From the NCBI GenBank assembly GCA_903826205.1, contig CAIKDP010000031.1, positions 1-62,332 on the forward strand: a stretch of 62,332 nucleotides of DNA. The letters run 5' to 3'. Source of the stretch: Akkermansiaceae bacterium (GTDB lineage Bacteria > Verrucomicrobiota > Verrucomicrobiia > Verrucomicrobiales > Akkermansiaceae). The notes beneath the pieces were generated by a model. That model had not been told where the DNA came from. It ran no database searches and was given only the letters and a program-made list of their open reading frames with translations. This document shows positions 19,073 through 62,332 of the stretch, piece by piece. Every line of letters begins with the position of its first letter. The first letter of the stretch is position 1. The translations under genes and the position numbers were made by a program.

Positions 19073-22000
19073 ATGAAATCCAAGTCCCCATTCCAACTCG
19101 TCCGTAAAGGTTCCCGCAACCTCGCCGTCGCGCTTGTCACTCTTTGCGCCGCCCATGCCGCGCAGTCCGCCACCATCTATTGGGATGGCACCGGCAACGA
19201 TTGGAGCCAGGTCGGGTCCTGGTCCACGCTGGTGGGTTCCAATTTGCCGGGTGACAATCCTAGCGCCATTCCCGGCGCGTCGGACATCGCGACGTTTTCG
19301 ATCAATTCAGTCAACTCCGCGCAGACGGTCAATCTGACCGGCGATCAAGCGGTGGCGGGCTTGGTTTTCCTTGGGACCAACACGAATACGACCACTTTGT
19401 TAGGCGGTGACACGGACCACACCCTGACGATTGGCACCAGCGGCATCACGATCAACAGCCTGGCGGGGGTGGTGACGATCGGATCCGCGGCGTCCGGCCA
19501 GAATGTGGCCATCACGCTTGGGGACGCGCAGACATGGACGAACAATTCGGCGAATGCGCTGACGGTGCAGAATGGGGTGACCAACAGCACGTATCTTCTA
19601 ACCATCGCGGGCTCCGGCAACACCACCCTCAATGGCGCCATCGGCAGTGGCGCGGGCGGCCTCAGCATGAGTGGCTCAGGTACCCTGACCCTCACTGCAG
19701 CCAACACCTACAGCGGGGCCACCACCGTCAACAGTGGAACCCTGACCGTTAGCGGCGCGGCGGGCTCGATCAGCGGTTCCAGCGGCATCACCCTCAATGG
19801 GGCCACGCTCACGTTGACGAATCTCGCTGCGGAAACCGCGGTCAACCGCATCGGCAACGCGGCCGACATCACCTCCAATGGCGGCACCTTCAATTGGAAC
19901 AACACCTCTGCGGGCACCATGGTTTATGCCGAGACCCTCGGCACGGTGAAGCCCTCGAGTGGTCTGCTCAATGTGGTGTTAGGGAATAATCAGACCAACA
20001 CCGGCAACACCCAAACCCTGACCCTCTCCGGCTTGACTCAGTCCGGCACCGGTACTGTCGCTTTTTCGGTGCCGACCACCGGCCCGAACGCGACCACCAA
20101 TATCATCAATAACACCGGTGCCACGGCCAGCACCTTGGTCGGGCCATGGGCCACGGTCGGCACCGCCACCAATGCGCAGAGCGACTACGCGTATTACGAT
20201 GCCTCGAAAAACATCGTGCCAGCGGCCATCGCCGCCTCCGCGGAAACCACTTGGTCGACGGCGGCCAACACCTACACCATCGGCGCAGGCCAAACCCTCA
20301 CTGCCAACCGCACGCTCACCGCCCTGCGCAGTTCTGCGAACGCTCTAACAGTGACGATGAACCAGTTCAATCTGGAAACGCTGGGTCTGCTTCAGGGCAG
20401 CACCGGCACGTTCACGCTCAACAGCACCTCCGGTGTGCTCAGACAGCAAGGCACCTCCGCCGCCAATCTCTATGTGACCACTGGCAACAATGCCATCACC
20501 ATCAACGCCCCGATCCAGAACAACACCGGTGCCCTGACCTTGGTGAAAAACGGCAGTGCAGGCACGTTGATTCTCGCGGGTCTCAACACCTACACCGGCG
20601 GCATCGCGCTTGAGGCAGGCACGCTGCAATTGAATGGAGCCACCGCGCCGGGCACCGGCACCCTCACCGTTTACGGCGGCACCACGCTCGACACCAACAC
20701 CGCTAACAACTACTTCCCGGCCAACAACCCGCTGACCCTCAACGGCGACTTCACCTTCACCGGCACCCAAAGCCTGAACCTCGGCACCGGCGCAATCTCG
20801 CTGGGCACGCTGCCCGGCAGTTCGAGCAGCAACAGCCGCACCATCACCGCCAACGCCAACGTCCTGACCCTCGGCGGCGTCGTCGCCGACGGCACCACGG
20901 TCAACGCGTTGACCAAGGCGGGTGGCGGCACCTTGGTCCTCAATGGCAACAACACGTATACCGGCGCGACCGCGGTCACCGGCGGCACCCTGATCCTCGG
21001 CGGCACCAGCGCCAGCACCGGCGCGACCACCGTCACCAGCGGTACCCTGATTGCGCGCAATGCCGCGGCGCTGGGCAGCAGTGCCGGCAACAACGTGTCG
21101 GTCAGCGCAGGCCAGAACCTGACCTATTTTCCCACCACCAACACCGCCCTGGCTATCGGCGGTACGCTGTCGTTGCCCGGCACTTCAGTTCTCGGAACCT
21201 CCATCGGCTCGTCTCTAACCGGTTCTAAGATCAACGTCGCCGGCGCGGCCACCACCAGTGGCACGGTCACCGTCAACATCTTCGGCATCAGTGGTGTCAC
21301 CACCGGAACTGCCGGCACCTACACCTTGGCGACTGCGGCCAGCGGCTTGGATGGCGCAACCTATGTCCTTGGCAAGGTCTATAACAACACCAACTTCACG
21401 GTTGGCACGCCCACGGCGACAGCCACCGATTTGACGGTTGCCGTCACCAACGCCACGGCTCTGACCACCGCCTTCTGGCGGGGCGGGCTCGCGGGCGCGA
21501 CCCAAGTGTGGACCGCTTCCAACGGCAGCACCCAGAGCAACTTCGTGAGTTCGCTGGCGCTGGCCAACCAGCCGCTTGTCCCCGGTTCCGGCACCGATGT
21601 GATCTTCAACACGGTCGCGAGGACCGGCGGTGCCCAAATCGCGACCTTGGGTGCGGACACGAGCGTGCGCGGCATCACCCATACCGATACCGGGGCCGTT
21701 ACCCTCGCCCAGGACGGCTACGCCCTGACGCTGGGTGCCGGCGGCATCACGATGTTGCAGAACAACTCCAACAACACGACGACCGCGGCCTTCACCATCA
21801 ACACGCCCGTGATTCTGGGCGCGGCGCAGACTTGGAAGAACGATAATCTAACCGTCGGCCAGGCACTTAACATCGGTGGCTACATCAGCAATGGATCCAA
21901 CAACCTGATCATCCGTGGCATCAGCAGCGTGAACCTCACCGGCTCGTTCCTCGGCAGCGGTGCCGGCACCCTGACCAAATACGGCAGCAACACCCTGACC

Positions 22001-25000
22001 CTCTCCGGTGCCAACACCAACACCGGCGTGACCTCGATCTATCAGGGTAACATCACCCTCAGCGGTGATGTGGGAACGTTGAAGAATTCCACCGGCATTG
22101 TCTTCAACGGTGGCTCGCTGACGCTTGGCACCAATGGCAACGCCCAGGGTGCTGTGGATCGCCTGGGCAACAGCGCGGGCATCACCTCCTACGGCGGCAA
22201 CCTCACCTACGCCAACACTTCCACCGCAGGCGTGACCTTTGCCGAGACCATCGGTTCCGTGGCACTGACCAATGGTCAGTTCGACGTAGTTGAAAACGTC
22301 AACATGCTCGGGGCGGGCACGCCCACCAACGCCCAGACGCTGACCCTCAGCGGCCTGACCCATACCGGTGCCGGCAATGCCTCGACCGTCACCTTCTCCG
22401 CGACCACCACCGCACCTAACGCGACCACCAATATCGTCAAGGTGACGGGTGCGTCCGTAACCACCGCCGGACAGATCATTGGCGCGTGGGCCACTACCGG
22501 CACCGCCGCTGCCACCCAGACCGACTACGCGGTTTACGATGGCTCGACCAACATCGTGCCGGCAGCGATTGCCGCCTCAGTGGAAACAGCCTGGACGACG
22601 GCCGCCAACACCTACACCATCGGTGCTGGTCAATCCCTCACCGCCACCCGGACGCTCACCGCCCTGCGCGCCAACACCAACAACATGACGGTGGCCCAGG
22701 GGCAGTTCAATCTGGAAACCTACGGCTTGCTGCAAGGTGCTGTCAACACCTTCACTATCAATGCCACTTCGGGCGTCCTGCGGCAGCAGGGGACGGCCGC
22801 TGCCAACATGTATCTCAACACGGGCAGCCAAGGCATAACTATCAACGCCAATATCCAGGACAATTCCGGCGCTCTGACTTTGGTGAAATCCGGTTCCGGC
22901 GGCAACCTGATCCTCGCTGGCTTGAACACCTTCACCGGCGGCGTGGTGGTTAATGCGGGCACCGTGCAGATGAACGCCACCAACAGCCTGTTCACGACCG
23001 CGCTCGGCACCGGCACCGTGGTCATGAGCGGCGGCGCCCTCGACAGCAACACCGCGGGCATGGTCAACCTCAACAACAACGCCCTGACTGTTAACGGCGA
23101 CTTCACCTTCACCGGCACCCAGAGCCTGAACTTCGGCACCGGCGCGGTTTCGTTGGGCACCACGCCCGGCATTTCCCGCACCCTCACGGTCAACACCAAC
23201 AAACTCACCCTTGGCGGCGTGATCAGCGACGGTTCCAGCGTCAATTCGCTGACCAAGGCCGGCAACAACAGCCTCGTCCTCAGCGGTGCCAACGTGTACA
23301 CCGGCGAAACGGTCCTCAGTGCCGGCCTGCTGCAAATGGGCACCAACCCGGCGGGCACCTTCCCGGGCATCACCAGCAGTGCCATCGGCACCGGCACCTT
23401 GGTCTTCAATGCCGGCGGCATCTCCTCCGACAGCATCACAGCCCGCTCGGTTTGGAACCCGGTCACCTTCACCGGCCACGGCATCATCGGTGACACCACC
23501 GCGATCGGCAAGCTCACCTTCCGCTCTGCCGTGGACCTCGGCCAGGCCGTCCGCACCATCAGCACCCCCGGCGGCGATGTGCAGTTCGACGGAGCCCTCA
23601 GCGGCGCGGCCGGCGGCATCACCAAGATCGGCATCGGCACCCTCATCCTCAATGCGGCCAACACCTACGGCGATCAGACCAATGTCAGCCTTGGCACCTT
23701 GAAACTCGGCACCAGCGGAACGCTGCCGACCGGAACCAATGTGGTCGTCGCCAGCAGCACTGGCAATCAGTGGGCGATCCTCGACCTCAACGGCCAGAGC
23801 GCCACCATCGGCACCTTGACCCTCGGCGGGCGCGCCCTGTCTGTCAACAATGCCGCGCAAGCCGCAAACGCGACCGGTTCGGCCATGGTCACCACCGGTG
23901 CCGGCACGCTCACTCTCGGCGGCGACCTCACCTACGATGCCACTTCCAACCCCTTCGCCTCGATAGTCGCTGGCAAACTCGACCTCGGCGCGGCCAGCCG
24001 CAATTTCAATGTCGGCAACAGCTCGAACACGCAGGCGGCACCTGACCTGGTCGTCTCGGCGGTCATCTCCGGCGGAGGCAGCTCCAATCTGACCTTCAAC
24101 AACAACGGCATGGTTCTGCTCTCGGGCAACAACACCTATTCCGGCACGACCAATCTCACCTCGGGTGGCACCATCTTCATCACCGGTGCCAACACCACCA
24201 CCGGCGCGACCGCGATCAGCGGCAACAGCGTCCTCATCGCCCGCAGCGCAAGTGCCTTGGGCGGCGTCAGCAACACCGCCGGCGTGACCGTCGCCAACGC
24301 TGCGGCCAACAACCTGACCTACAATGCGCTTGGGAACGCGCAGTTGGCCATCACTGGCAATCTGAGCTTTGCGGGCGCAGGGACCCTTGGCGCGACCATC
24401 GGTTCCAATCTAACCACCGCCGCCATCAACGTGACGGGCGACGCGACGACCGCCGCCTCAGCCATCACCGTGAACATTTTCGGCAACAGCCTCAGCCAAA
24501 CTGCGGGCGGCACGGGCATTTATACCCTGGTTCACGGCGCCGGCGCCGGCAGCAGCCTCGGCAACGCCAACTACACGCTGGGAACAATCTACAACAACAC
24601 GAACTTCACTGTCAGCTCGACGCTCATCAAGAGCGCCTCCGACCTGCAGGCCACGGTCACCACCGCCACGGCTTTGTCGACCGCCTACTGGAAGGGCACC
24701 GGCACGACCAATAACACCGTGTGGTCCGCCTCCTCCAACGGCGCCGTCGCCAGCAACTGGGCCTCGGATCTGGCTGGAACCACGATCAGTTCCGTGGTCC
24801 CCGGTTCCGGTGCGGACGTGATCTTCTCCGCCACCGGCGTGACCTCGCCTGCCAACTCCACGCTGGGCGCGGACATGACGATCAAGAGCCTGACTTACCA
24901 GTCCACGGCGGGGATGAACATCAACGCGGACGGCTACACACTCACGATTACTCCGGATGTCGCCACCAAGGGCATCAAACTGCTCGCCCAAGGAACTGTG

Positions 25001-28000
25001 AACTTCAATGCGGGCCTCGCCGCGGGTGCCGCCCAAACCTGGTCGAACTATTCCGGCAACACCTTCACCGTCAATGGCAATGTGGCCCTCGACACCAACG
25101 CCCTCACCGTCACCGGTGCCAACCCGGAAACCATCATCGGCGCCATCAGCGGCGGCGCGGGCGGCAGCATCACCAAGAACGGCACGGCCGTCCTCAATCT
25201 CTCCGGCAACAACACTTTAACCGCCGGTATCACGGTCAATCAAGGCACGCTGCAACTGGGCAACCCGACCGCCCTGGGCACGGGTACCCTGACCCTCAGC
25301 GGCGCGGGCGCCACACTCGACAGCAGTTTCGGCAACCTCATCAACACCAACGCCAACGCGGTCGCCCTCAACGCCGACTTCACCTTCACCGGCAGCCAGG
25401 CCCTGAACCTCGGCACCGGCGCGATCACGCTGGGTGCCGCCACGAGCGCCACCAGCACCACCCGCACGCTCACGGTCAATGGCAACGTCCTGACCCTCGG
25501 CGGTGTCATCAGCAACGGCGGCTCGACCACCGGCCTGGCCAAGGCGGGCAACAACGTCTTGTTGCTCAATGGAGCGAATCTTTACACCGGTGCCACCAGC
25601 ATCACCAACGCCAGCCTCAAGATCGGCCAGAGCAACGCCATCAAATCCGGCAATGCGATGACATTGTTCCAAGTTGGCGGCATCCCTGTCTTTGACCTCA
25701 ACGGTTTCAGCCAGAATCTCGGCAGCCTGACCCTGAGCGGCTTGGTTCAAGGTAGCACGTCCACCGTGACCAACACCAACGTGGCCAGCCTCAGCACCCT
25801 GACGCTTTCCGGTGGCGCCACGGCGTTGGTTTACAACAATGTTTCCAGTGCCATGACCAATGGCCTGGCGACCATCTCCGTCAACGCCGTGGATCTCAAT
25901 GGCGGCGCGACCTTTAATGTCGGCACCGGCAGTGGCTTGACCGTCACCTCGGCTATCCAGAACGGGGCACTGACCAAGATCAATCCCAACGGCACCTTGA
26001 ACCTGCAAGGCGTCAACGCCTACACTGGTGCGACCAACATCTATGGCGGCACCCTCCAAGTCAACGGCAACCTCGGCACCATCAACCAGTCCGCAGCCAT
26101 CAATATTGGCAACGGCGCTTCGCTGCTTCTGACCAACGCCACCAACCAGACCGGCATCGACCGCGTCAAGGACTCCGCCGGCATCAACTCTTATGGCGGT
26201 TCCCTCCAGTTTAGCAACACTTCCAACCAGGGCGTCGTTTACGCCGAAACCGTGGGTGGGCTGACGCTCAACAACGGGCAGTTCGACACGATCCTGAACA
26301 CCGACATGGCCGGCGGCGCGGGCACCAGCGGCGCAACCAACTCCCAGACGCTCACCTTCAGCAGTCTGACCCACAACGGCTCCTCGGTCATCACCTTTAC
26401 CGGTGCCAACAACGTCGCGCCGAACACCACGACCAACATCATCGTGAACACGGCTGCGGTGGGCTCGGCAACCCCGGCTGGCCAGATCATTGCGCCTTGG
26501 GCAGTGGTCGGCATCAACAACCAGCAATACACGGACTATGCGGTCTATAATGCGGCTGGTCAGATCGTCCCCGCCGGTATTACCGATTCGGCCGAAACCA
26601 CTTGGACCACATCGACCAACTCCTACACGATGGGCACTGCCTTGGGCAGCGGCAGCGACAAGACCCTCACCGGCAACCGTACGATCACCGCCCTGCGCGA
26701 CCTCGGCAACAACAACACGCTCAACCTGGCCACCTTCAATCTGGAGACCAACGGCCTGTTCGCCTACACCCAGAACAACTGGAACATCAACAGCTCCGGC
26801 GGTGTGATCCGGCAGAATGGCACGGCTCCCGCGAACCTTTATGTGACCACCAGCAATCAGGGTGGAATCATCATCAACGCCCCAATTGTGGACAACGTTG
26901 GCGCCCTGACCTTGGTCAAGAGCGGCTATCAGAACCTCTACCTGCGCGGCGTCAACAGCTTTACTGGCGGCGTAGTGCTCAATGCGGGCACGACGCTCAT
27001 TCAAAATGCGGCGGGGCTTGGTTCGCTGAGCGCCCCCGGCACGCTGACCTTTGCCGGCGGCACGCTTGACAATGACACCGTGCAACTGCCGACCCTCGCC
27101 AATGCAGTGGTTATCAACGGCTATATGGGCATCGGTTCCACCGGTTCCAATAACATCGTATTCGGCAATTCGGTGTCGTTGGGGGCGACGCCGGGTGCGT
27201 GGCGCAGGATTGATGTATCAGGTTCCTCCAACCTGGTCTTCAACGGCGTCGTCAGCGACGGCACTACGGTCAATTCGATCGAGAAAACGGGTAGCGGCAA
27301 CCTCGTTCTCAAGGGGGCTAACACCTACACCGGCGACACCATTGTAGGAGGTGGCAAGATCCTGCTGGCTGGCGGCAACCTCGGCACGGGCAACCTTGTC
27401 TTCAACGGTGGTGCCATCGCATCCTTCAACGCCAGCCCCCGCACGATTCTCAACCCGGTCACCTTCAATGGCAGCACCCAGACCCAAAGCGCCACCTTGG
27501 GTGACGCGGCCGGCAACGGCAAACTCACCTTCAGTGGCGGTTTTGATCTCGGCATCGCCCCGCGCCGGATCGACATGCCCAGCGATGTGCAGATTGACGG
27601 CATCGTCAGCGGCACCAGCGGCACCGCCGGCGGCGGCCTGGCCAAGACCGGCCTCGGCGTCCTGACCCTGACCAACGCCAACAACAGCTACCAAGGCATT
27701 ACCGTCGTGGGTGGCGGTGTCTTGCGGCCGACGGTTGTCGGTGCCATTCCGGCCAACACCAACATGGTGGTGACTAACACGACCACCTATGGTACGTCCA
27801 CGCTGGATCTGGCCACCCACAGCATCGATCTCACGGTCGGCACGCTCAGCCTTGGCGCCTCCAATAATATCTACGCCAATCAAAGCACCTTCAATGCCGC
27901 CGCTAACAGCTCGTCGCTGATCAACACGGGGACTGCCACATTGACCCTCGGCGGCGACCTCAATCTGCTCGCTGGTGTGGCCGGCTACTCCTCGGTTATC

Positions 28001-31000
28001 AACGGCAAACTGGACCTGGGCACACTCAACCTGGTGGTCAACAGCCCGGTGCTCAACAGCATCAACGCCACGCCATACTTTGCCCGTAACATTGTCGTGG
28101 CTGACAGCGCCAACGCGGGAGCCGACTTGAACATCAACGCGGTTATCTCCGGCACCGGCATCGGCATCAACAAGACCGGTGCAGGCATGCTGCAGCTCTC
28201 GGCCAACAACACCTTCACCGGCGGCATCCTGGTCAACGGCGGCAGTGTGTTCCTCACCGGCAGCAACGCCAACAGCTACCCGACCACGCTGACCAGCGGC
28301 ACGATCGTCGCCCGCAACCAGAATGCCCTGGGTGGCAGCAGCAACACGGCCTTCATGACGATGGCCGCCAACACGACCCTCAATTACAATGCCCTCACGG
28401 ACACCCCCCTGAATCTCGGCGGCAACCTGGTCATCACCGGTGGCACCACCAACATCGGCGGCTCCATCGGCGCCACGACCACCAGCGCCCAGATCAACGT
28501 CGCCGGCGCGGCGACCGTGAACGCGGCGGCCATGAAGACCAACATCTTCGGCATCAACGGCGTCACGCCGACGGCCGGAACCTACACCCTGATCCACGGC
28601 GGCGCGGGCAGCGCCCTGAGCACCGGTACCGGCTGGGGCATCAACTTCGTCTATAACAACACCAACTTCACAGTCGCCGCTCCCACGGCCACGGCCACGG
28701 ATGTGACGACGGTGGTTTCCACCGCCTCGCCCATCTCGACGGCGTATTGGAAGGGCAACCTGACCGGAGCAACCCAAGTCTGGGCGGTTTCCAACGCAGC
28801 CCAGAACCAGAGCAACTGGGTGACTTCCTATGGCGGCGCAAACCAGACCCTCATTCCCGGTCCGACGGCCGACGTTTCGTTCTACGCTCCGGTCAGCGGC
28901 ACCGCTGCTGCGGCCTCGCCAAGTGTCACGACCCTGGGCACGGACATGAGCATCAAGAGCCTGACAGTCAACGACTTCGTCAACACGGCCCTGAGCCTGG
29001 GTGCGGACGGCTACGGTCTGACCATCGGCACCGGCGGCATCAGTGTGCTCGGCACCCTGCAGAGCCAACCCGTCACCCTCAATCCCAACCTCAAGCTCAA
29101 CGGCGCCCAGACATGGACGCTGAATGCCCCGGCTTTCAACACGGGCAATCCGCCGAACCAGAACCTGTCCAACAGCATCCTGAACGTCAACGGCAACATC
29201 GACAACAGCGGCAACCTGCTGACGGTCAATGCCGCTGCGGGCCAATCTGTGAGTCTTTACGGTGTCATCAGCGGTACCGGCGGCCTGACCAAGATGGGCG
29301 GCAATACGCTCAATCTTGCCGGAGCTAACAGCTATGCCGGCGACACCACCATCAACTACGGCACGCTCTACCTGCAAGGTGCCGGCGCACCTGGTGCCAG
29401 CCCGCTGGGCACGGTTGCCGGCGGAACCTATGTCAACAGCAACAACGCCGCCCTCGATCTGGGCGGGATGACGATCTACACCGCCGAGCCGCTCTTCCTT
29501 AATGGCAACAACGGCAATGGCGCCCTGACTAACAGCGCGGGCACCGTGGCGAGCTGGACCGGCCCGATCACCCTGCAAAGCAACAGCAGCATCGGTGGCA
29601 ATGTCCTGGTCAACGGTGCCGGCGCCTTCACCGGCGGCGGCTTCAACCTGACCCTCAACGGCGGCGGCACGCTGGGCAACTTCGCCCGCGTCATCGACAC
29701 CGGCGTGGCCTCGCTGACCAAGTCCGGCACCGGCACTTGGATGCTCTCGGCCGCCAACACCTACACCGGCCCGACGTTGGTCGGCAACGGCACCCTCAAG
29801 CTGGGCGTCGCCGGCGCCATCCCCGCGGCCAATCCCTTCGCGGTGGTCGCCGTCCAAGGTACGGCCACCTTTGACCTGGGCGGCTTCAACCAGTCGCTGA
29901 GCAACCTGACGATGAGTTCGCTATATGCCAACGGCGCGTCCAACATCACCAGTTCGCTGGGTAACAGCACCCTGACGCTCACCGGCGGGGCCTCGGCATT
30001 CGCCTACGTTTACCCGTACAATGGCAATCTGCCCCCGACCACGGCGTCGTTCTCCAACGTCACGGTGGATATGAACGGCGGCGCAACCTTCAACGTGGTT
30101 GACAGCAGCCCGAACCCGGATGTGAATTTTGCCTACACCTCCGTACTCCAGAATGGTGCGCTGACCAAGACCAACGGCGGCCAGATGGCGCTGCAGGCAG
30201 CCAACACCTATACCGGCGCGACCAATATCTACGGCGGCCAGTTGCAACTCAGCGGCAACTTCGGTTCGATCAACCCGTCCGCCAGCATCACCATCAGCGG
30301 CGGGGCCTCGCTGCTGCTGACCAACACCGCTACGCAGAACCTCGGCACCCGCGTCGGCAGCGCCGCTGGCATCGCTTCCTACGGCGGTAACCTCCAGTTC
30401 AATAACACCACCAGCGCCGGCACGATCTACACCCAGACCACCGGAGCGCTGACCCTTGAGTCCGGGCAGTTCGACACGATCCTCAACAACGACCAGAACA
30501 CCGGCAGCGGCAATGCCCAGACGCTCACCCTTAGCGGCCTGACACACAATGGCTCCTCGGTGGTCACCTTCTCGGCGCCGAGCAGCACACTCAACTGGAC
30601 CACCGGCAGGACCGGGTTGAACACCACCACCAACACCATCAAGGTGACCGGCGCGAGCGGTGCCGGCTCCGGGCAAAACCTCCCTGGCGGCGTGATCCTT
30701 GGCCCATGGGCCACCGTTGGTTTCAGTCAAGGCCAAATGTGCGACTATGCGGTCTATGATGGCTCAGGCAACATTGTTGCCGCGAACATCACCGCCTCGG
30801 CCCAAACCACCTGGACGAATGCGGCCAACGCCTTCACCACGGGTACCGCTCCTGGTACTGGCGGCAGCGGCAGCACCACCCTCACCGGCAACCGCACGAT
30901 GATGGCCCTGCGCGACGTCGGCAGCAGCGACTACTTGTACCTAAACCAGTACAATCTGGATACCGCCGGCCTGTTGAACGACTCCAACGGCATCTGGAAC

Positions 31001-34000
31001 ATCAACAGCACCACGGGCGTGATCCGTCAGAACACGACCTCCGCCGCGAACCTCTATGTGACCACCAGTGACTTGGGCAGCATCTACATCAACGCCCCGA
31101 TCGCCAACAACACCGGTGCCCTGACTTTGGTCAAGAGCGGCTACCAGAACCTCTACCTCCGCGGTGCCAACACCTATACCGGCGGCAACGTCCTCAACGC
31201 CGGCACGCTCATCGTCAGTGCGGCAGGTGCCAGCTCGCTGGGCACCGGCACCCTGACCTTCGCGGGCGGCACGCTCGATAATGATACCGTGCAGCTTCCC
31301 GCCTTCACCAACCCGGTGGTCCTCAACGGCTACATGGGCTATGGTGCCACCGGCAACTACAACCTGACCCTCAACGGCACCCTTTCGCTGGGCACCGCTC
31401 CGGGCGCGTGGCGCACGATCAACGTTGCCAATTCCGCAGCCCTGATCCTTGGCGGCGTCATCAGCAACAGCGCCGCGATCAGCTCCATCGAAAAGACCGG
31501 CAGCGGCAACCTCCGCCTCGCCGCCCAAAACCTCTACACCGGCGATACCATTCTCAGCGGTGGGGCCGTGCAGATCGGCGTCAATTCCGTGGGTACGGTC
31601 GGCTCGATCACCAGTGGTGCCATCGGCACCGGGCGGATCGTCTTCAACGGCGGCGGCTTGGTCTCCGACACCACCGCCCGCACCATCATCAATCCGGTCG
31701 TCTTCAGCGGCAGCGCCAGCGGTGGCAATGTGAGCGCCAACCTCGGTGCCGGCGCCGCCGGCGGCAAGCTGACCTTCAGCGCCCCGATTGACTTCGGCTT
31801 TGCTTCACGCGTCATCAACATCAATGGCGAGGTGCAGTTCGATAGCCTGCTCAGCGGCACCGGCGTCGGCGCCGGCACCAGCGCCAGCGGCGGCACCGTT
31901 TCCGGTGGCGGCCTGATCAAGGGCGGCGCAGGCACCCTGACCCTTACCAACGCGGCCAACAGCTACAATGGTTCGACCGCCATCGTGGGTGGTATCCTCC
32001 GTCCGACTGCTGTCGGCGCAATTCCTGCGGGCACCAACCTGACGGTTGCCAGCAACATCAGTCTGAACACCGCCACCCTCGACCTTGCCACCAACAATAT
32101 CAACCTTGGCATCGGTACGCTCAACATGGGCGGCAGCGCGGTGCTCGGCAACAGCGGCCTCAATGCCACCACTGGTTGGTCCCTGATCAACACCGGCGCG
32201 GCGACCCTGACCCTCGGCGGCACCGTGACATTCGACAGCAACGCCGCCGCCTACACCGCGACGATCGCCGGTAATCTGGCCTTGGGCACGGCCAACCTGA
32301 CCCAATACAACACCGGCATCAATCAATACACCGGCGTGCCTTCTTATGCGGTCCGCGACTTCAACGTCAACGACAGCGCCAACGCGGGTCCGGATATGAA
32401 CGTCTCCGCCGTCATCACCGGCACTGCCGGGCTGGCCAAGAACGGCGCCGGCACCCTGCTGCTCTCGGGCAACAACAGCTACAGCGGCGCGACGATCGTC
32501 ACCGCCGGCACCTTGATCCTCAACGGCACCAAGAGCACCACCGGTGTGACCATGGTCAACAGCGGCGGCACCCTGATGGCCCGCAGCGCCAATGCCTTGG
32601 GCAGCAGCAACACCGCCGGGGTCACGGTCTATCCGAACACGAACAACAGTGCGACGTCCGCCACAGCCCCGAACTTCACCTACAACCCGGTTGCGGACGC
32701 CGCGTTGGCCATCGGCGGGGATCTGACCTTCATCGGCGCGATCAACAACAACAACGCCACCCTCGGGGCCGCCATCGGTTCCACCGGCGGTGTCGGCACC
32801 AGTTCGGCACAGATCAGCGTGACGGGCAAAGCCATCATCGCCGATCGTCCGCAGACCATCAATATCTTCGGCGTCCCCGGAGCGGCCCCGGCCACCGGCG
32901 CCTTCACCCTCATTCACGGCGGTGCAGGCAGTTCGTTGAATCCGACCACCGCGCCGACCCTCGGCTACGTCTACAACAACACGAACTTCACGGTCGGCGC
33001 CTTCACCCGCACCGCCACCGATCTGCAGGTTGCCGTCACCAGTGCCACCGCCCTGACCACCGCCTATTGGAGAGGCGGTCTGACCAACGCGACCACCATT
33101 TGGGCGGCTTCCAACGGCAGCACGCTGAGCAACTGGTCGGCCACCGCTCCGAGCGGAGCGGCCCAGGCCCTCATTCCCGGTGCCAACACCGACGTGATCC
33201 TGGGAGTCTCCCCGGCCGGTAACGAGGCTTGGACCTCCTACCTTGGTGCCGACATGAGCATCAAGAGCCTGACGATCAATACCACCAATGTCACCAACTC
33301 GCTGACCCTCAACAACGACGGTTACAGCCTGACGCTCGGCAGCGGCGGCCTCAATCTGCTCAGCGCTCCGGATCAGCAACATATCGCCCTCTATCCCGAT
33401 ATCAAGCTGGCTGCGGCCCAGACTTGGACGGTCAATAGCCCGTATGTCAGTCCGCCCAACTACGGACGGAATTTCTTAGACATCAACGGCAATGTGGACA
33501 ACCAGGGGAACCTGCTCACGATCAACGCCTTCGGGGCCCAGAACACGCCCACCATCAACGGCGCCATCAGCGGTTCCGGCGGCCTGACCAAGACTGGCGG
33601 CTACCAGATGTACCTCAACGGTGCCAACACCTACACCGGTGCAACCACTATCAATGGCGGCGGCATTTACATCAGTGGCCAGGGCGGTTCGATCGCCGGA
33701 TCCTCCAGCATCGCCATCAATCAGGGCAACCTGCAGTTGGTTAGTAACAACGCCAACGAAAGCTACGTCAACCGGGTCGGCGACAGCACCCCAATCACCA
33801 CCCTTGGCGGTCAGCTCTACGTCAACAATGCGACCACCAGCAACGCCAACTACGCCGAGACGATCGGTGCGGTGACCACCAACAGCGGCCAGTTCGACGT
33901 GGTGTTGCAGCAGAATTCCGCGTCCGTTGCCAACAACACTCAGTTGCTGACCCTCGGCGGCCTGACTCACAACGGCACCTCCGTGATCACCTTCTCCGCG

Positions 34001-37000
34001 CCGACGACGCAGCCGAACGCGACCACCAATGTCATCAAAAACACCGCGTTTGGCTCCGCCACCCCGGCCGGCCAGATCATCGGTGCGTGGGCTACCGCCG
34101 GCGTCGATAACGGCAACCAACAGGACTACGCTGTCTATGATGCTTCCGGCAGAATCCTCCCGGCGAACATCGCCAAGACGTCGGAAACGACCTGGACGAA
34201 TGCCTCCAACGCCTACACCATGGGCAGCGGCACCTTCAGCACCGGCGGCAGCGAGACTTTGACGGCCAATCGCACTATCGCCGCCCTCCGCGACGTCGGC
34301 AACAATGACACGTTGACCATGGGTGCCTTCAACCTCGAGACCAACGGCCTGCTCAACTACGCGAATAACCACTGGCAAATCAACAGCTCTGGTGGCGTCA
34401 TCCGGCAGGTCGGCACGGCCCCGGCCAACCTCTATATCACCACCGGAAATCAGGGCGACGTTTACCTCGCCGCCCCGATCGTGAACAACACTGGCGCCCT
34501 GACGCTGGTCAAGAGCGGTAATCAGAGCCTCTATCTGCGCGGTACCAACACCTACAGCGGTGGCACCGTGATCAATGCCGGCACGCTCTTCCTCAACAAT
34601 GCCAGCGCTATGGGCACTGGCAGCCTGACCTTCAACGGCGGTTCGATCGACACGGAAAATGCGGTCACTCTGGTCAGCAATCCCCAAGTGACTGTCAACG
34701 CCGATTTCACCGCTGGCGGCGGAACCAATAATTCCCTGAATATGGGCTCCGGCGCGGTGTCTCTGGGCACTACCCCAGGTACCACCCGCACGATCTCCGT
34801 CAATAATGCCTTCCAACTCACCCTCGGCGGCGTCATCAGCAGCCCCGGTACCGCCAACTCGATCACCAAGGCCGGTAGCGGCACCCTGACCCTCACCGGC
34901 GCCAACACCTACACCGGCGCCACCAGCATCACCGGCGGCACCCTCAAGGTCACGGATGCCAGTGGTCTGGGCACCGGTTCGGGCAATAACGTCTCCGTGG
35001 CCCAGAGCACGGCTCTGAACTACTTTGCGGCCTCCAACGCGGCACTCGCCATCGGCGGCAACCTGGCCCTCACCTCAGGCGGCACCACCACCCTCGGCAC
35101 GTCGATTGGTTCCACCACCAGCTCTGCCGCGATCAACGTAGCGGGCAATGCCACCGCCACCAGCGGTGCCATCAAAGTCAATATCTACGGCGTCGGCGGC
35201 ACCACCCCGGGCGCGGGCACCTACACCCTGGTCCACGCGGCCAATGGCGCCGGTGGCACCAGCAGCCTCAACGCCGCCACCTATTCGTTGGGCTTTGTTT
35301 ACAACAACACCAACTTCACCGCCGCTGTACCCACCGCCACGGCCACGGACCTGACCACGGTCGTCAGCGCCGCCACGGAGTTGCCCACCGCCTACTGGAA
35401 GGGCGGTCTCAGCGGTGCGGGCAATGTGTGGGCGGCCTCCAACGGTACCACCCAAAGCAACTGGGTGGCAATCTCGGGCGGAGCCAACCAGCCACTCGTG
35501 CCCGGCCCTAACACCGACGTCTTCTTCTACAACTCCAGTCTCAACCAGGATGCCTGGGGTTCGACCCTCGGTGCGGACCTGAGCATCAAGAGCCTGACGT
35601 ACAACCAACCCAGCCGTGCCAACAACCCGATCAACCTCGGTTCCGACGGTTCCACCCTGACCATCGGCAGCGGCGGCATCACGGATTTGGACTCCAACGG
35701 TCAGGATCTCCACTTCTATCCCAATGTCGCCTTGGCGGCTCCCCAAGCTTGGACGAACACCAATGCCGCTAGCCGGGCGTTGAATGTCTATGGCAACGTG
35801 CCCACCAACGGGTATCAACTTACCCTCACCGGTACGCAGACGATCAACATCACCGGCGCGATCACCGGCGGCGGTGGTCTTACCAAGAATGGCAACAACA
35901 CCCTCTTGCTCTCGGGTGCCAACGCCTTCGCTGGCGGCGTCAACCTCAACAACGGCACCCTCTATGTGAACAATGCCACCGCCCTCGGTGCCACCGCAGG
36001 CACCCTCAATATCGACGGCGGTAACATCAACCAGAATGTTGCCGGCAGCATCACCAACGCGAACAACAACCCGATCACGATCAACGCCAATTTCACCTAC
36101 GGCGCGGACAATAACTGGAACTTGAACCTCGGCACGGGCGCGATCTCGCTGGGCACGGCGGCTGGCACCACCCGCACCATTACGGTCAACAATGCGGGCA
36201 CCCTGACCCTCGGCGGTGCCATCAGCATCGGCTCCACCGCCAACGCGATCACCAAGGCGGGCACCGGCACCCTGGCGCTCGGCGGCACCAGCAGCTACAC
36301 CGGCCCGACGACTATCAGCGCCGGCACCTTGCAGATCAGCGGCGCCGCCAATTTGGGCGATGCCACCTCGGTGACCAACACCCTCAGCATGGGTGCCAAC
36401 ACCATGCTGCAATCCACGGCCAACAGCTATGACCTCGGCGTCAACCGCACCATCACGATGAGCGGCGCGGCCACGTTCCGCAGCGACGCCGGCACCCTGA
36501 CCGTCAGTGGCGCCGTCACCAACGCCGGCAACCTGCTCACGGTCACCGGCGCGGGCAATATCACCCTCGGCGGCGGAATGAGCGGCTCAGGCGGCCTCAC
36601 CAAGACCGGCGTCGGCGCCTTGACGCTCAGCGGCACCAACGCCTACACCGGCGCGACGACGTTCAACGGCGGCAAGCTGTTGGTCAATGGCAGCACCCAC
36701 GCCTCCAGTGCCCTGACCGTTGCCAGCACCATCGATAACACGACGGCGCTGCTGGGCGGCACCGGCACCATCAACGGCCTGGTGACCCTCAATGCCACGG
36801 CCGCGACCAACCGCGTCAACGAAATCACCGGCGGCGACATCGGCACCATCGGTACCCTCAACCTCGCCGGTGGCCTGACCTTCGGCGCGGGTGCCATCGG
36901 CTACTTCGACATCACCGATACCCTCACCAAGGACTTCCTGAACGTCACCGGCAACCTGAGCGCCGCCAGCGGCACGGTCATCCGCGTGCCCGCCGGCCTG

Positions 37001-40000
37001 GCGTCCAACACCTACCCGCTCATCGGTTACAATGGCAGCGTCTCCGCCATCGGCAACTACACCTTGCAAGACCTTGGCGGCGCAGCCGCCCAGGAAGGCT
37101 ATGTCCTCAACTACTCGGGTACCACGCTGGACTTGGTTGTCTCTAACATCCGCACCTGGACCGGTGGCAGCAGCAGTCCCGCCAACGACAGTTGGACCAA
37201 TTCCGGCAACTGGAATGGCACGATCTCGGACGGTGCGCTCTTGCACTTTGCCGGATCCACCCGCACCACGCCCTCCAACGACTTCAGTGCCGGGACGTCC
37301 TTCGCTGGCATTATCTTCGATGCCGGTGCCTCCTCCTTCACCCTGAGCGGCAATGGGATCGCCCTGCCGGGTGATATCACCAACAACTCGTCCAACAACC
37401 AGAGCATCACCCTTTCGACGATCGCTCTCTCCAGAACGAGCGGCGTCAACACCGGTGCCAACAACATCAGCATCAGCTCCGACTTCAGCGGTGTGGGTGG
37501 CCTGACCAAGACCGGCGCCGGCACGCTGACCCTCTCCGGCAATAACAGCCAAAGCGGCGCGACCACCCTCGGCGCCGGCACCCTCAGCGTGTCCACCATC
37601 GGCAACGGCGGCGTGACCAGCAGCAACCTCGGGTCCGCCACCAGCGCGGCCAGCAACCTCGTCTTTGACGGCGGCGGCCTCCAATACACCGGCACCACGG
37701 CCAGCACCGACCGCAACTTCACCATCAATGCCGGCAAGACCGCCAGCTTCGATGTGACCCAGGCCGGCACCAACCTCACGGTCTCCGGCACGCAACCCGC
37801 CACCACCGGCGGTCTCACCAAGGCCGGCGCCGGCACGCTCACGCTCACCGGCACCCAAGTCTATACCGGGGCCACCGCCGTCACCGGCGGCACGCTGCAA
37901 ATCGGCAACGGTGGCAGCGGCGCCTCGATCAACGGCACCAGCGGCATCACCCTGTCCAATAGCGCCAACCTCACCTTCAACAATGCCGATGCGGTCACGC
38001 TCAGCAAGGCGGTTGCGGGTACCGGTTCATTCACCAAGACTGGCTCCGGCACGTTGTCGGTTTCTGCAGTGCAGACCTACGATGGTGCCACTGTCGTCAA
38101 TGGCGGGACTCTCAAACTGATTGACGTCACGCCGGCGAGCGGCAGCAGCCTCTGGCTCAATGCCAATGACACCTCGAAGATGACCTTCGGCACGGGCAAT
38201 GCCATCACCGCATGGGCCAGTCAGACCGGAACCGGGAACACGGAAGTCGGTAACGGCACCTATACCCCAAATGCCCTCAATGGTCAGGCCATGGTGCGTT
38301 TCACCAGCAGCCAGTTCATGCAGAATACCGTCGATTACGGCACATCGATCACCATGTTCACGGTGTCGAAAATGAACGGTGGTGCCAACGGGCGGGTGTT
38401 CGGCGCGCGGAGCAGCAATTACTTGTTCGGCTACTATAACGGCGCCATGGACGACTTCCATTTCAACAGTTGGGTCTATCAAGGCAACGTTGCCGCCGAC
38501 ACCCAGCCGCACATGTATGAGGCCACCATTGGCGCCTCCAACACCACGATGTATGTGTATGACAGCCGCAATCCTTCCGCTGTGCGGCAGCTTGCCTCTG
38601 TCAACGGTGCCTGGAATGGTCCCGCTGGCGGGCTGGAGCTTAACGGCTCCCAGGGTGGAGAACTCTCAAATGTGGACATCGGCGAAGTTCTGATTTATGC
38701 AGGCGTGCTCAGTGCTGAGCAGCGGGCGCAGACCGAAGCCTACCTTCAGGCGAAATATTGGGGCGCGGGTGCGGGAACCGGCGCTCTGCCGATCACCACG
38801 CCGCTCTCGATCGCTGCGGGTTCCGCCTTCGATCTCAACAGCGTCAGCCAACAAGTGCTCTCGCTCTCCGACTCCGGCGGCAGCGGCGGCATCGTGACGA
38901 ATAGCGGTGCCACTGGCTCCACGCTCACCCTCAGCGGTGGCACGGCAACCTTCAGCGGCGTCATCGGCAACGGTGCCTCCATGGTCAGCCTCACCAAGAG
39001 CGGCTCCGGCACGCAGACGCTCAGCGGTGCCAACACCTACACCGGCGCCACCCTCATCAACGGCGGCACGCTGGCCCTCAGCGGCAGCGGTGCGCTCACC
39101 GCCACCTCGGCGATCACCGTGACCTCTCCGGGCACCTTTGATGTCTCGGCCAGATCTTCCGCCTATGCGCTTCCCTTCGGCACCACCCTGACCAACAACA
39201 GCCTCGTGCTCGGCAGCGTCACCGCTCCCCTCGGCGCCACCCTCAGCGGCACCGGCAGCTACCTGCAGGGTTCCAGCGGGGCTTGCACCGTGACCTTGAA
39301 TGGCGGCACGATCCGGCCCGGCGACGGCGGCGGCACCCTCACGATCGGCGCGGGCGGCAGCAACGTCGCGCTCAACCTCCAATCGAACTCGGTCTATCAG
39401 TGGGGTGCCACCTCGGCCAGCACCGGCGGACTCGTCCAAGTCAATGGCAATCTGTCCATCGGCACCAATGTGCAGGTCAACCTCGTGGATCTGGGCACCA
39501 ACCCGATCGGCGGCACCTACACGATCATGACTTGGACCGGCACGGATCCGGTCAACTCCCCGGTTCCGGGTGTGAGCCCGGCTCCCGCCGGTGCCGCCAA
39601 CTGGATCGACGGCGCCTCAGGTACCTGGGGCACGATCGCCAACTGGGATCTGCCGACCGTGCGTGGCGGCGGCTCCATCGCCAAGGTGGGCAAGACCTTT
39701 GTCCTCAGCGGCGTCACCATGGTGGGTGCCACTCCTGGCATCAATAACGACGTGGTCATTTCCCGCGCCTTGGGTGCGGTGGTCACGGGTCCCGCGGCGG
39801 CCACCACCGTCAAGTCCCTTACTCTGGGCAACGCCACCGATGCTCATAGCCTGAGCGTCCAGTCCGGCGGCCCGCTGTCCGTCACCACCACGGCCACCCT
39901 GACCCACAACACCAGCTTGGTCGGCCCCGGCACCCTCGTTGCCGCCACCCTGGCCACCAGCGGTACGGTCACCTTGAGCGGCGGAATCACCGCCGCCGCC

Positions 40001-43000
40001 GCCACCATGAACCTGACCGGCACGGTCCAGTTCGACGGCGGTACCCTCAAGCTCGGCGCTAATAACTCCGACCTGGCCGGCGGCACCACGTTGCTCGCGG
40101 TGCAGACCGGTGGTGCCACCATCGACACCAACGGCTACGCGGTCACCTTGAACAAGGCCTTCACCCATGCCGGTAGCGGCACCGACGGCGGCCTGACCAA
40201 GGCCGGCGTAGGCACGCTGACCCTCGCCACCGCCCAGACCTACAACGGCGGCACCACCATCGCCAATGGCACGCTCAAGATCAACGGCGGCGCCGGCCAG
40301 CTCCTGCCCACCGACAGCGTCGTCACCATGGCCTCCGGCGCCATCTTCGATGTCAACGGCACCTCCCAGCAGATCGGCCGCTTTAACGACAGCGCCGCCA
40401 GTGGCCACCAAGTGCTCCTTGGCACTGGCACGCTCACCGTCGGCGACGCGACCGATTCCAGCTTCTCCGGCAGCCTCTCGGGCGTCGGCGGCACGCTGGC
40501 CAAGGCCGGCGCAGGCAAGCTGACCCTCAGCGGCTTCACCACCAATGCGGGCATCACCGTGACGCAAGGCACCTTGGATCTGGGCAGCACCACCGCCAGC
40601 ATCGGCGGCCTGATAACCTTCCAGGGCGGCACGACCCAAAACGGCGTCATCTCCAACAACGGCTCCGCCTACGCTGGCAAGGCCGGCTTGGTCACTGCCT
40701 CGTTGCAGGGCACCGCAGGCCTGAACAAGACCACCACCGGCGAACTCATCCTCACCGGCGGCACCAACACCTTCAGCGGCCCGACCTCCATCACCGGCGG
40801 CACCCTGCGCGTCAATGGCTCCCTGCCTAACAGCGCCATCACCGTCGCCAACGCCGCCGGCCACCTCGCCACCGGCGCCGATATCTCCACCGTCGGCACG
40901 CTCACGGCTTCCAGCCTGACGCTCACCTCGGGCAGCATCGACTTCAAGTTCGGCAGCTCGACCAACGACTTGTTCCACGTCACCGGCACGGATGCGCTGG
41001 CGCTCAACGGCGGCGGCATCAACCTCTATCAGGCGGGTGGCACCACCACCTTCAACTCCAACGGTTCGTATGACCTCTTTGAATACACCGGGGTGGACAT
41101 CGCCGCCACGCCGACGCTGATCCTCAACCGGACCGGCGGCAAGACCTACAACTTCAGCACCGTGGTCGTGGGTTCCAACAAATTCATGCACCTGGAAATC
41201 GGCACTTCCGCCGTCCGCCCGACTTGGAACGGTGGCGGCGCCGATACCAAATGGAGCACCGCGCTTAACTGGAATGATTCGAACGCCCCCATCGGTTCGG
41301 AGTCGCTCTTGTTTATCGCCACCACCGGCAACCTGACCGCCAACAATGACATTGCCGGCAGATCCTACGCCAACCTGGAATTCGGCACCGGTTTTGAAAC
41401 CATCGGATCGCACACGCTCACCGGTCTCGGGGTCACCCTCACCGGCACCGCTGGCAACATCATCCGCAACAATGCCGCCAACCTGCAAACCGTCAATCTG
41501 CCGATCACCCTCGGGGCCAACGGCCAAATCGATGCCGCCGGCGGCCCATTGGCCATGGGTACGCTTGCCACCATCGCCAACGCCGGTTACACCCTGTCCT
41601 TCACCGGTGCGTTTGATACCAGCGTCGCCGCCAGCGTCAGCGGCAGCGGCGGCCTCACCAAGTCCGGCACCGGCAAGGTCACCCTCAACGGCACTACCAG
41701 CTACACCGGCAATACCGCCGTCAACGGCGGTGGTATCCTCGAGATCAACGGCAGCTTTGGTACGGCCGGCACCTACAGCGGCGACATCACCTTCTTGAAC
41801 AATTCCTCGTTCAAGTATCTCAATGGCGCGAGTCTGACCTTGTCCGGGTTGCTCAGTGGTACTGGCAACACGACCTTCGGCGGCAGCACCCTGCTGGTCA
41901 GCGGCGCCAATACCTACGACGGCGGCACGACGCTCAATGGCACCAATCTTCAAATCGGCGTTGACAGCGTCGGTTCGGCTGGCGCGATCACCAGTGGTGC
42001 CCTCGGTAAAGGCAGCTTGGTCATCAATAACGCCACGATCACCTCGGATGGCACGGCGCCCCGCACCCTCCTCAACGCGGTCTCCTTCACCAGCAATGCC
42101 ACTCTCGGCAACGCCACCAAGAACGGCAAGCTGACCTTGGGTGGAACGATGGATCTGGGCGCCGCCAACCGCACGCTGACCCTCAACAGTGGCGCACAGC
42201 TCGACGGGAAAATCACCGGGACCGGCGCTATCACCACCACCGGGACGGGAACACTGACCCTCAACAATGCGGCCTTCACCAACGACTTCACCGGCGGCAT
42301 CGTCGCCGACGGCACTTCGACGGTGCGCTGGAATCTCGATAACCAGTTGGCTGACACGGTTGGAGTGGGCCCCGCCCACAACGGCACCATCGACCTCAAC
42401 GGCCATAACGACACGGTCGGCAGGATCTGGTTCGGCTTGGGCAACGTGGGTGAAACGTCCACGCTCACCACAGGTGTGGGAACTCTAACCATCACCGGGA
42501 CCGCCGGGGGCAATGCCAATATTGCCGTGGACTCTTGGTCGTCGCAGGCCAAATTTATCAGCGGCAAGCTCAGCTTGGGCGGTGGAACGCGGACCATCGA
42601 GAATGGCTCGGCCGTGGGATCGCCGATGACCGTCTCGGCTGATGTCTCCAATGGGGGACTCGACCTGACCAACGGCACGGTGACCCTATCCGGTGTCAAT
42701 ACCTACGACCTCGGGACCAACGTCCGCGGTGGCGCCACCATGATCTACGGGCAGGCGGCTTCCCAGCCCGCCACGGGCACCACCACGGTCCTCGCCAACG
42801 CCACCTTGGGCTTGGGTGTGGGCGGCGCAGGCTTCTTCAGCGCAGCGGACGTCACGAGCTTGTTTGCCGGCACGCTGGTCAATGTGACCAACAATGCGAG
42901 TTCCTTCGTCGGTATCGACACCACGGCAGGCGACTTTGTCTATGCTTCGAACGTCGCATCGACCACCAGAGGGCTGTCCAAGCTCGGCGCCAACACGCTG

Positions 43001-58869: not shown

Positions 58870-59166
58870 GTTTGTTTGGGGGTTGAGGTATTCGGTATCG
58901 TAGAGCTGACAGCAAACGGTGTGCCAACCGCGGCGGATATGGAGGAAAAAGTTTGGACCTGCAAGATGATTTTCGCTAGGTGCAGGGTTTTCATCCCCGG
59001 TTGCGGCGGCCATCCAGGCGGATCCGGAGGGTCCATGGCCACGAAGCTGGCAACTGATTTTATAAACAAACTGTTGTTTTAGCAGGAGAAATGCCTATTT
59101 TTCTGGCGAGGATGGCCGCGTCGTTGCCTTCCTTCGTTCCGTGAATCCGCAAGCGTGATCGCCCCC
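58870..59166. promoter_or_regulatory. Divergent intergenic region before the second PATR gene
   Basis: These 297 bp separate two divergent surface-protein genes. The most AT-rich part is 59055-59100, with a small inverted repeat AAACAA / TTGTTT at 59064-59079 followed by AGCAGGAG. I see no gene. Promoters for both neighbours should lie here. Confidence 0.4.
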
Positions 59167-62100: not shown

Positions 62101-62332
62101 AATGTTGAAGGTGGCGCGGGCACCCTGACCTTGGCTAACTTGACCTTCAGCGGCGGTGGTGCCGTCAACGTGAGCAATCTTGGCTCCTACGCCAGTGTTC
62201 CCGCCATCCGCACGAGCGGTCTAACCGCCAATGGGGGAAGTGGATCCGTTGTGATTTCGGTGAGCGGCACTCTGCCTGCGGGAAGCGGCACGACCCATCT
62301 GCTCGAGCATGTCGGAGACATCGGCGGTACCG
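59167..62332 (+). CDS. Second PATR-repeat secreted protein (C-terminus beyond the window)
   Basis: The frame from ATG 59167 stays open to the window edge: at least 1,055 residues. A signal peptide (MTRTPVVRLALSGAWLIAMA, cleavage near ARA) is followed by an N-terminal globular domain (about 30-220: LINVDFNDATANNG, FSGLTPGSYDVYVYSGDVDKDG, INGVDFGDGYALRIAGFQIK). This galactose-binding-like domain is common at the start of verrucomicrobial surface proteins and absent from the giant protein. A header VVTWASTGTVDWGTASNWTS near 222 opens the PATR region, with units such as LVLTGNNTYTGLTQV, KLTLTGSNSYSGGTKI and WTLSGANTYTGTTTV. The C-terminal sorting region is not in the window. Confidence 0.9.
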   Translation, partial: MTRTPVVRLALSGAWLIAMALTTGPARAGLINVDFNDATANNGNPTATFAGAAAIGQVGDQWNGINVADGWGDTNTTKVYAGLIDAFGSSTGATLTLTGSRLAYVNVDGGLGYTRPYDPLLLDLLTNKPVFTFSGLTPGSYDVYVYSGDVDKDGKGDSSGSVQINSGTKQFFTASLVGTALVAGRDYLKFSGVSVTNGTLTINGVDFGDGYALRIAGFQIKLALPVVTWASTGTVDWGTASNWTSEYGAIAPPNAVGSNVIFKASAALGNVDLGGTDRTVGVLTFNNVDATSMTLASAQGRTLVVDNGSAAPGVTVSGTHAISAGVKLNGDLSIKPNATTDTLTLGGPISNFNATARGISLLGSGTLVLTGNNTYTGLTQVTSGTLAIASTSALPGWNVNGRYAVSSGAAIAVGNGVSEAEIAGIRATSNFAAGALLGFDTRAGDRSFPAMSGTLGLIKAGANKLTLTGSNSYSGGTKIASGTLEIGGGGTLGGGSYSGAIFINSGASLNFTTSADQTLGAAISGAGGLAWNGAGTLTLNANSSYSGGVTVNGGTLKPLTGDAFQGNLQINAGAKATFTNGWASGVGRTLVINGGTLDSLKTGQGTDFSLAAVTLQGGLWAQTGSAYYDIYNNGVTGALPITTLASGTEATIAANLHTRLSANFSGDLLFTVAKGSTASGVDLVVSGLLDPRGGSGNVTKAGPGLMAITGTHNLPAGGDFGTYAGTTSDTGGTLQLGTGGTTGSIDSSSGVSVAAGATLAFKRSDNPAFGLKVTGAGNLSQVGAGTVYLANPTSDYTGVTTLSAGVLNVSMLANVNTASPIGKGSSGGAAADLVINGGTLQHTAASAATNRLFTIGANGATLDASSSFMSIGSGGGALAFSTSNSPASLTLKGSGVGMLAASVGNSGSGSNLTALTKSGTGSWTLSGANTYTGTTTVSGGKLYLNGDNATPTIAVGTGAALGGTGNASAATVTVAAGGNVEGGAGTLTLANLTFSGGGAVNVSNLGSYASVPAIRTSGLTANGGSGSVVISVSGTLPAGSGTTHLLEHVGDIGGT

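Follow-up and report, generated by a model that had tools for sequence, protein, structure and literature searches.

The window analysed here, a whole contig of 62,332 nucleotides from an Akkermansiaceae bacterium of the phylum Verrucomicrobiota (CAIKDP010000031.1, assembly GCA_903826205.1), carries on its forward strand a giant gene for a protein rich in PATR motifs. Its open reading frame (ORF) runs from 18971 to 48943 and holds 9990 codons; the probable start is the ATG at 19073, followed by a leader (MKSKSPFQLV) that stops just ahead of the sequence ATIYWDG. Four pieces of the protein were scanned for the Pfam family PATR (PF12951), which was found in 10, 14, 7 and 5 stretches respectively, with 84–195 bits per piece for a cut-off of 27. 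An earlier note, made from the sequence alone, had read this protein as a chain of complete one-gene passengers fused in frame, with central modules that grew. The account below concerns the order of these modules, which recurs in a distantly related genome, and the way in which such an array may have grown.

A giant protein built of passenger-sized modules

Trp-rich headers were located at six sites, starting at residues 69, 835, 1906, 3259, 4699 and 5475, and it was indeed the earlier note's claim that such a header opens each super-module. Cut at the headers, the protein gives modules of 766 (M1), 1071 (M2), 1353 (M3), 1440 (M4), 776 (M5) and 588 (M6) residues, or 2.3, 3.2, 4.1, 4.3, 2.3 and 1.8 kb of DNA, so that the three length classes are borne out with the sizes first given for them. 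The five modules of the note all stand; it had missed a sixth, truncated one which lacks the DYAVYD block. In the first five, the DYA(V/Y)Y motif starts at 20183, 22523, 26534, 30743 and 34124 (DYAYYD in the first case, DYAVYN in the third), at most 8 nt from the positions originally noted. The anatomy was described with six block models: M1 and M5 are both made of a header (HDR), a DYAVYD block (DYA), the PATR block that follows it (PST) and a closing domain (CLO), while M2 carries in addition insert B (INB), M3 and M4 carry both insert A (INA) and insert B, and M6 is reduced to HDR-PST (Table 1). The alignment agrees with what had been proposed, namely an addition before the DYAVYD block in M3 and M4 only, and another after it in M2, M3 and M4.

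This super-repeat goes well beyond a shared PATR composition, since the best high-scoring segment pairs (HSPs) of all ten pairs among M1–M5 reach 282–868 bits (868 bits over 1475 columns for M3 and M4), whereas in the internal control, in which the modules were compared with the rest of the protein, itself rich in PATR (R7–R11), they score at most 84.7 bits, HSPs being listed there only above 60 bits. Self-BLASTP of the whole protein returned no off-diagonal rows, and the modules were therefore compared as separate sequences. The approximately 3900 residues after M6 are devoid of super-modules, bar a weak insert-B-like stretch (residues 7656–7918, 69 bits).

Table 1. Coordinates of the giant PATR gene and of its parts in the window.
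Feature	Position	Strand	Basis
Giant PATR ORF, ~9956 aa from the ATG	19073..48943	+	Pfam PATR above cut-off in all four scanned pieces
Leader/signal peptide, of the genome's own type	19073..19174	+	sequence by eye; 63% to own-genome C114 protein (aa 31–283)
Module 1, short: header, DYA block, PST, closing domain	19175..21472	+	module cuts, alignment, block models
Module 2, medium: short plan plus insert B	21473..24685	+	module cuts, alignment, block models
Module 3, long: inserts A and B	24686..28744	+	module cuts, alignment, block models
Module 4, long: inserts A and B	28745..33064	+	module cuts, alignment, block models
Module 5, short	33065..35392	+	module cuts, alignment, block models
Module 6, truncated: header and PATR block, no DYA block	35393..37156	+	PST block 84% to M6 of RH-23may17-247
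Insert A of module 3; left half copies the PST block	25184..25984	+	alignment, PST model
Insert A of module 4	29300..30175	+	alignment
Insert B of module 2	23318..24157	+	alignment
Insert B of module 3	27347..28234	+	alignment
Insert B of module 4	31556..32500	+	alignment
Closing (CLO) domain of module 5	34952..35392	+	block models; autochaperone-like registration of predicted model
Closing domains of modules 1–4	21056–21472, 24242–24685, 28313–28744, 32582–33064	+	block models
PATR region without super-modules, plus C-terminal domain ending GKGFLRAKAVK	37157..48943	+	PATR scan

The same ordered array in a distant genome

The array has a counterpart in RH-23may17-247 (hereafter RH), a metagenome-assembled genome (MAG) labelled Chthoniobacteraceae. 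Its contig C9 holds a complete frame of 7590 residues with the modules M1'-M2-M3-M4-M5-M6, in which length classes and inserts match those of the giant, the first module having no recognisable header or PST block. One single BLASTP HSP joins residues 835–6058 of the giant to residues 1405–6686 of the RH protein (5363 columns, 63.8% identity, 5435 bits). Modules at the same position are 59.8 (M2), 68.8 (M3), 69.0 (M4), 67.4 (M5) and 66.1% (M6) identical, against 46–57% for all other pairs between the two proteins, those of M1 included. Orthology by position is also observed in the trees: the headers of M2, M3, M4 and M5 pair in this way with bootstraps of 99–100, as do the DYA blocks of M4 (100), M3 (93) and M5 (86), the closing domains of M4 (93) and M5 (90), and inserts A and B of M3 and M4. 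The insert trees were made with the records L064 (the ortholog) and L061 (a second gene of RH), the other block trees with the full RH gene. The five DYA blocks of the giant do not form one clade (approximately unbiased (AU) test, p = 5e-6). Because modules, length classes and order recur in this distant MAG, the array and both its inserts are considered old, and because trees and identities pair by position, the three length classes predate the separation of these gene copies. Similar pieces lie on three contigs of another MAG, Umea_bin-08385, whose rpoB is 99.4% identical to that of RH, so that the two are counted as one lineage.

Position is not everything. The earlier note had expected the blocks of one module to track together, and this is true of the headers of M2–M5, of the inserts and of the DYA blocks of M3–M5. 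Several results weigh against a strict rule: CLO-M2 rejects its positional partner (AU p = 0.0016) and HDR-M6 does so marginally (p = 0.047), the tests for DYA-M2 (p = 0.29) and CLO-M3 (p = 0.18) are not decisive, and once outgroups are included in larger trees, the DYA blocks of M2 are no longer together (82/57) and CLO-M5 stands apart from its counterpart. The headers are alike, as had been noted, but that of M1 diverges most and clusters with N-terminal headers of proteins from the same genome, in particular that encoded on contig C114 (support 100/100, 71% identity), whose protein is 63% identical to residues 31–283 of the giant. In its DYA and PST blocks, M1 is closest to M2 (62 and 64%), with a tree support of only 52/31. 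As the M1 header, CLO-M2 and HDR-M6 all break position, blocks seem to have been exchanged at times, and the start of the protein has the look of a local graft.

The leader and the first header are of the window genome's own type, and the tail resembles that of a same-genus protein: judged by eye, the FLRAK end is like that of L117, a same-genus PATR protein of 1128 residues. The C-terminal domain as a whole (DADPDKDGASNLAEYAFNGNP ... GKGFLRAK, window 48450–48943) is, again by eye, common to these two proteins. The RH and Umea proteins end in tails of the PEP...RRRR type (by eye). No PEP-CTERM or exosortase features were found in the giant, which ends GKGFLRAKAVK and for which NCBIfam gave no such family; it is possible that the FLRAK-type domain is a sorting signal other than PEP-CTERM.

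Predicted fold and closing cap

Type Va autotransporters combine a right-handed beta-helical passenger with a C-terminal beta-barrel translocator (Pfam family Autotransporter). No such barrel was found in the giant, Pfam at E ≤ 0.001 giving only PATR in the last 1990 residues. A model of M5 flanked by the preceding closing domain and the following header (CLO4-M5-HDR6, 1104 residues) is nearly all beta, with a mean predicted local distance difference test score (pLDDT) of 72.4 and a predicted template modelling score (pTM) of 0.51; confidence is low in the header loops and in part of the DYA block. Autotransporter passengers rank among its best structural matches. Its residues 218–932 align with pertactin 1–538 (Z 14.5, root-mean-square deviation (rmsd) 13.2, 389 aligned), the modelled module matching the pertactin passenger from end to end, in keeping with the passenger-sized repeat unit that had been proposed. 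The shorter PST-CLO model is of better quality (pLDDT 86.4, pTM 0.86), and each of its alignments with autotransporter passengers falls on their C-terminal end: residues 1–293 with pertactin 207–539 (Z 15.1, rmsd 4.5, 263 aligned), then EspC 712–1002 (Z 14.8, rmsd 3.4, 249 aligned), EspP 664–995 (Z 14.2, rmsd 3.6, 254 aligned), Hbp (Z 13.0, rmsd 3.9, 247 aligned) and IcsA 435–740 (Z 12.6, rmsd 5.1, 233 aligned). An autochaperone (AC) of the AC-1 type is a conserved cap fold at the C-terminus of the passenger, needed for its secretion and folding. In these proteins the ACs are placed at pertactin 444–556, EspP 869–979 and IcsA 606–720 (PMC5767081).

Other comparisons speak against a specific kinship. 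The same model reaches similar scores with beta-helices that are not autotransporters (Z 14.8 for the capybara-gut structure 7jvi, 13.7 for 4phb, 13.1 for SRRP and 12.0 for polygalacturonase), Foldseek returned no match at E ≤ 0.001 for the module or the PST-CLO model, and in Pfam the closing domain gave only PATR plus three stray weak matches, in one member each. Nothing convincing was found for it among the sequences of the PDB. The models give moderate support to the closing domain being an autochaperone-like cap, and likewise moderate support to each module being one beta-helical passenger so capped. The whole would perhaps be a chain of beta-helical beads that are capped one by one and nucleate their folding individually. 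Each bead would open with a Trp-rich N-cap (the header) and end with the closing domain; between the two would lie the beta-helical body, which holds the DYAVYD block and the PATR turns. The product would be a very long secreted and probably surface-exposed chain of such passenger-like beads; leader and PATR content suggest a surface or matrix role. From the general rise of a beta-helix, the chain could measure about 0.2 micrometres.

Growth, probable exchange and rival histories

Recent duplication inside a gene is observed in two other genes. In the window genome, one module is present three times on contigs C114 and C153, apparently in a second giant: the two C153 copies are 88.7% identical over 2026 bp with a period of 2436 bp, and C114 matches C153 at 89.8% (1966 bp) and 83.0% (1379 bp). 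In G743, a genome of RH's family, a gene of 3149 residues has three short modules without inserts, whose blocks cluster (DYA 99/97, CLO 99/96, three of four headers 93/94); such a gene with short modules only fits the proposal that the central modules grew. Near-identical, lineage-specific copies of this kind are not seen in the giant itself, in which the copies are old and track by position.

PATR motifs are observed at the edges of the inserts. With an iterated PATR model, all ten insert edges fall inside PATR motifs, which cover 14% of positions, although these ten are not independent since they probably descend from about two insertion events. A first model built from two seeds had placed 10 of 14 borders inside PATR; the iterated one was applied to the ten insert edges only, the four header borders being excluded as analyst-placed cuts. 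In addition, the left half of insert A in M3 is a copy of the PST block (97 bits with the PST model, only 16 bits in M4). Growth without any part for single PATR units, as the earlier note had it, is at odds with both results. Growth by single PATR units as the sole mode was also considered and rejected, since whole modules are repeated and the inserts sit at constant points.

Unequal recombination at PATR motifs would be the simplest growth route. Whole super-modules would be tandemly duplicated inside the gene by this means, PATR-to-PATR pieces (inserts A and B) would be added to the central modules, the old M2–M6 block would probably have passed between distantly related Verrucomicrobiota, and leader, first header and C-terminus would stay host-type. 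We regard this combination, PATR-mediated duplication within the gene with a probable exchange of the array between lineages, as the best explanation and a fairly probable one. Two findings on growth tell against it: the link between C114 and C153 is a 95-bp overlap only (98.9%), so that their belonging to one gene is not proven, and of the four ends of duplication tracts in the paralog, two are inside PATR and two lie 8 residues outside.

In the rival account favoured by the earlier note, neighbouring complete tandem PATR paralogs lost their stop codons and each module is a former gene. For huge proteins, fusion of neighbours is described as the most prominent hypothesis (PMC11573180), and the passenger-like size of the modules agrees with it. 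So does the RH contig (locus L189), where a long PATR-type ORF lies behind the 7590-residue gene on the same strand (3201 aa in one reading, traced to 2338 aa in another), giant genes thus lying side by side. Pieces of a one-gene passenger also exist on their own: small genes that have a leader and a single DYA block (L164, 929 aa; L168, 1034 aa), weak header matches ahead of the DYA block in the single-DYA loci L153, L161 and L166 (E 3e-5 to 1e-8), and closing-header junctions in complete small genes that lack a DYA block (L110, 1197 aa; L111, 1173 aa; L117, 1128 aa). These stand-alone pieces keep fusion alive at low odds. Against it, the five junctions show by eye no remnant of a leader or anchor, recent growth in the two other genes took place inside one gene, and the full HDR-DYA-PST-CLO unit occurs only in arrays, never in a single gene, among the fetched loci on which the block architecture was run, each cut to about 1500 residues around its match. 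On balance, fusion is improbable as the origin of the modules. Mis-assembly of the giant or of its repeat order is far more improbable still: the assembly is in 469 contigs and the second giant is broken between contigs within near-identical copies, yet no two modules of the giant itself exceed about 75% DNA identity over at least 500 bp, which makes them too diverged for collapse, and an independent MAG has the identical order in one open frame.

Horizontal exchange of the M2–M6 array between distant lineages appears likely from the sequences. Between the window genome and RH, rpoB is 73.5% and recA 76% identical, against 91.4–93.8% (three genomes) and 87–95% (five genomes) within the genus, and since a recA of the genus type sits on the giant's own contig, this contig is native and no contaminant. 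The best-conserved blocks exceed both markers: 78–83% for the M5 header, 81% for INA-M3, 80% for INB-M3 and 77–84% for the M6 PST block, while a PATR pair from within the genus, which may be paralogs, shares only 61.5% over 837 columns. Host-type termini, with an own leader and FLRAK end here and PEP-type tails in RH and Umea, fit exchange as well.

The distribution is patchy. Beyond the window gene, a core profile gave strong full-length matches on the genome's own contigs C153 and C114 (465–474 bits) and, more weakly, on C350 (300 bits); all those in other genomes of the core search score at most 280 bits, the loci examined holding DYA or PST blocks without a closing-header frame. Counting the window genome each time, 15 of 59 relatives had a match at E ≤ 1e-20; at E ≤ 1e-40 the order gave 20 of 386 genomes and the phylum 6 of 387. 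Four of the 40 genomes of RH's family match at E ≤ 1e-60, namely RH itself, G739, G743 and, weakly, G746. Four candidates per genome were scored in the order and phylum core searches, and seven in the order junction search below, so that extra copies could be missed. A 7903-residue PATR protein with a DYA block was also seen in an 'Oxalobacteraceae' MAG (G740, locus L063), a label that is doubtful because no rpoB match was found.

What argues against exchange is that the identity of the giant and RH over the whole array is 66.5% (global), below both rpoB and recA, and that the guanine-cytosine content of the giant, overall and at third codon positions, bears no foreign signature. The case consequently rests on the best-conserved blocks, the patchy distribution and one same-genus pair; with an array of 66.5% overall, a native base composition and few orthologs, exchange is likely and unproven. 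The same two facts favour old vertical inheritance, with the array kept by few lineages and lost by most. This history accounts poorly for blocks conserved above both markers, for the lack of a core match at E ≤ 1e-40 in the single-contig same-genus genomes G004, G059, G077 and G083, and for the low identity of the same-genus pair; we hold it unlikely, though it is the most serious of the rivals. The surroundings of recA in five genomes (four of the genus, one of the family) shared only recA itself and one weak fucosidase match, a result that is neutral as to an empty site.

Among known systems, proteins of the PATR passenger type (PF12951/TIGR02601) are like the giant in having PATR throughout, a predicted beta-helix and a cap that aligns with passenger C-termini; the giant differs in that no barrel is detected by Pfam and the passenger-like unit recurs, with five closing domains in about 9956 residues. 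Its closing domain is in register with AC-bearing passenger C-termini, like the AC-1 of type Va autotransporters (PMC5767081); unlike AC-1, it matches no sequence family, ends five modules, and is followed by a header instead of a translocator barrel. The Giant1–5 surface proteins of Apilactobacillus kunkeei are likewise extracellular (3000–8000 aa), exchanged between distant genera and subject to intragenic recombination, so that evolution of this kind is not new (PMC12863079). They belong to lactic acid bacteria, and their repeat regions consist of alpha-helical domains, beta-sheet domains or a single long helix; a beta-solenoid is confined to the N-terminal end in Giant1–4 (PMC12863079). 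The window giant, by contrast, repeats a beta-helical passenger-like unit. No earlier description of this module family was found in the literature searches, which covered open-access papers, nor was a repeated whole capped passenger, an order of length classes held across distant hosts, or host-type ends.

For the origin of bacterial giant proteins, fusion of neighbours has been named as the leading hypothesis (PMC11573180). The present family permits a direct test: it offers an old array with its order kept in distant hosts, a simpler gene of three modules, and fresh duplicates in the giant's genome. It speaks for intragenic duplication at repeat motifs. It also points to a possible exchange of giant surface proteins in whole blocks, the ends remaining specific to the host. 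More tentatively, and with somewhat less than an even chance in our judgement, the M2–M6 array may be a multi-passenger cassette of more than 5200 residues that moves between distant Verrucomicrobiota lineages and is refitted by PATR recombination with the recipient's leader, first header and C-terminal sorting end. PATR motifs would then serve both as folding elements and as recombination points, and an autochaperone-like nucleus in each bead would lift the limit on beta-helix length.

Gigantism is common in this order. Of the 73 genomes of the genus, 13 gave a match to a closing-header junction (E ≤ 1e-8), as did 39 of 386 in the order (E ≤ 1e-12), the window genome included in both; larger frames with such a junction reach 14657, 14376, 12473, 11959 and 11677 residues in the order. 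The window genome has itself a very large PATR repertoire, all 150 scored candidates (of 653) having matched, on about 40 contigs. Elsewhere in the window, a second PATR gene (59155–62331, PATR match at 60535) runs off the contig end, and within the giant a PATR-free stretch at 38120–38770 (LWLNANDTSKMTF... to ...AYLQAKYWG), which has no Pfam match, looks by eye to be of the LamG/ConA type.

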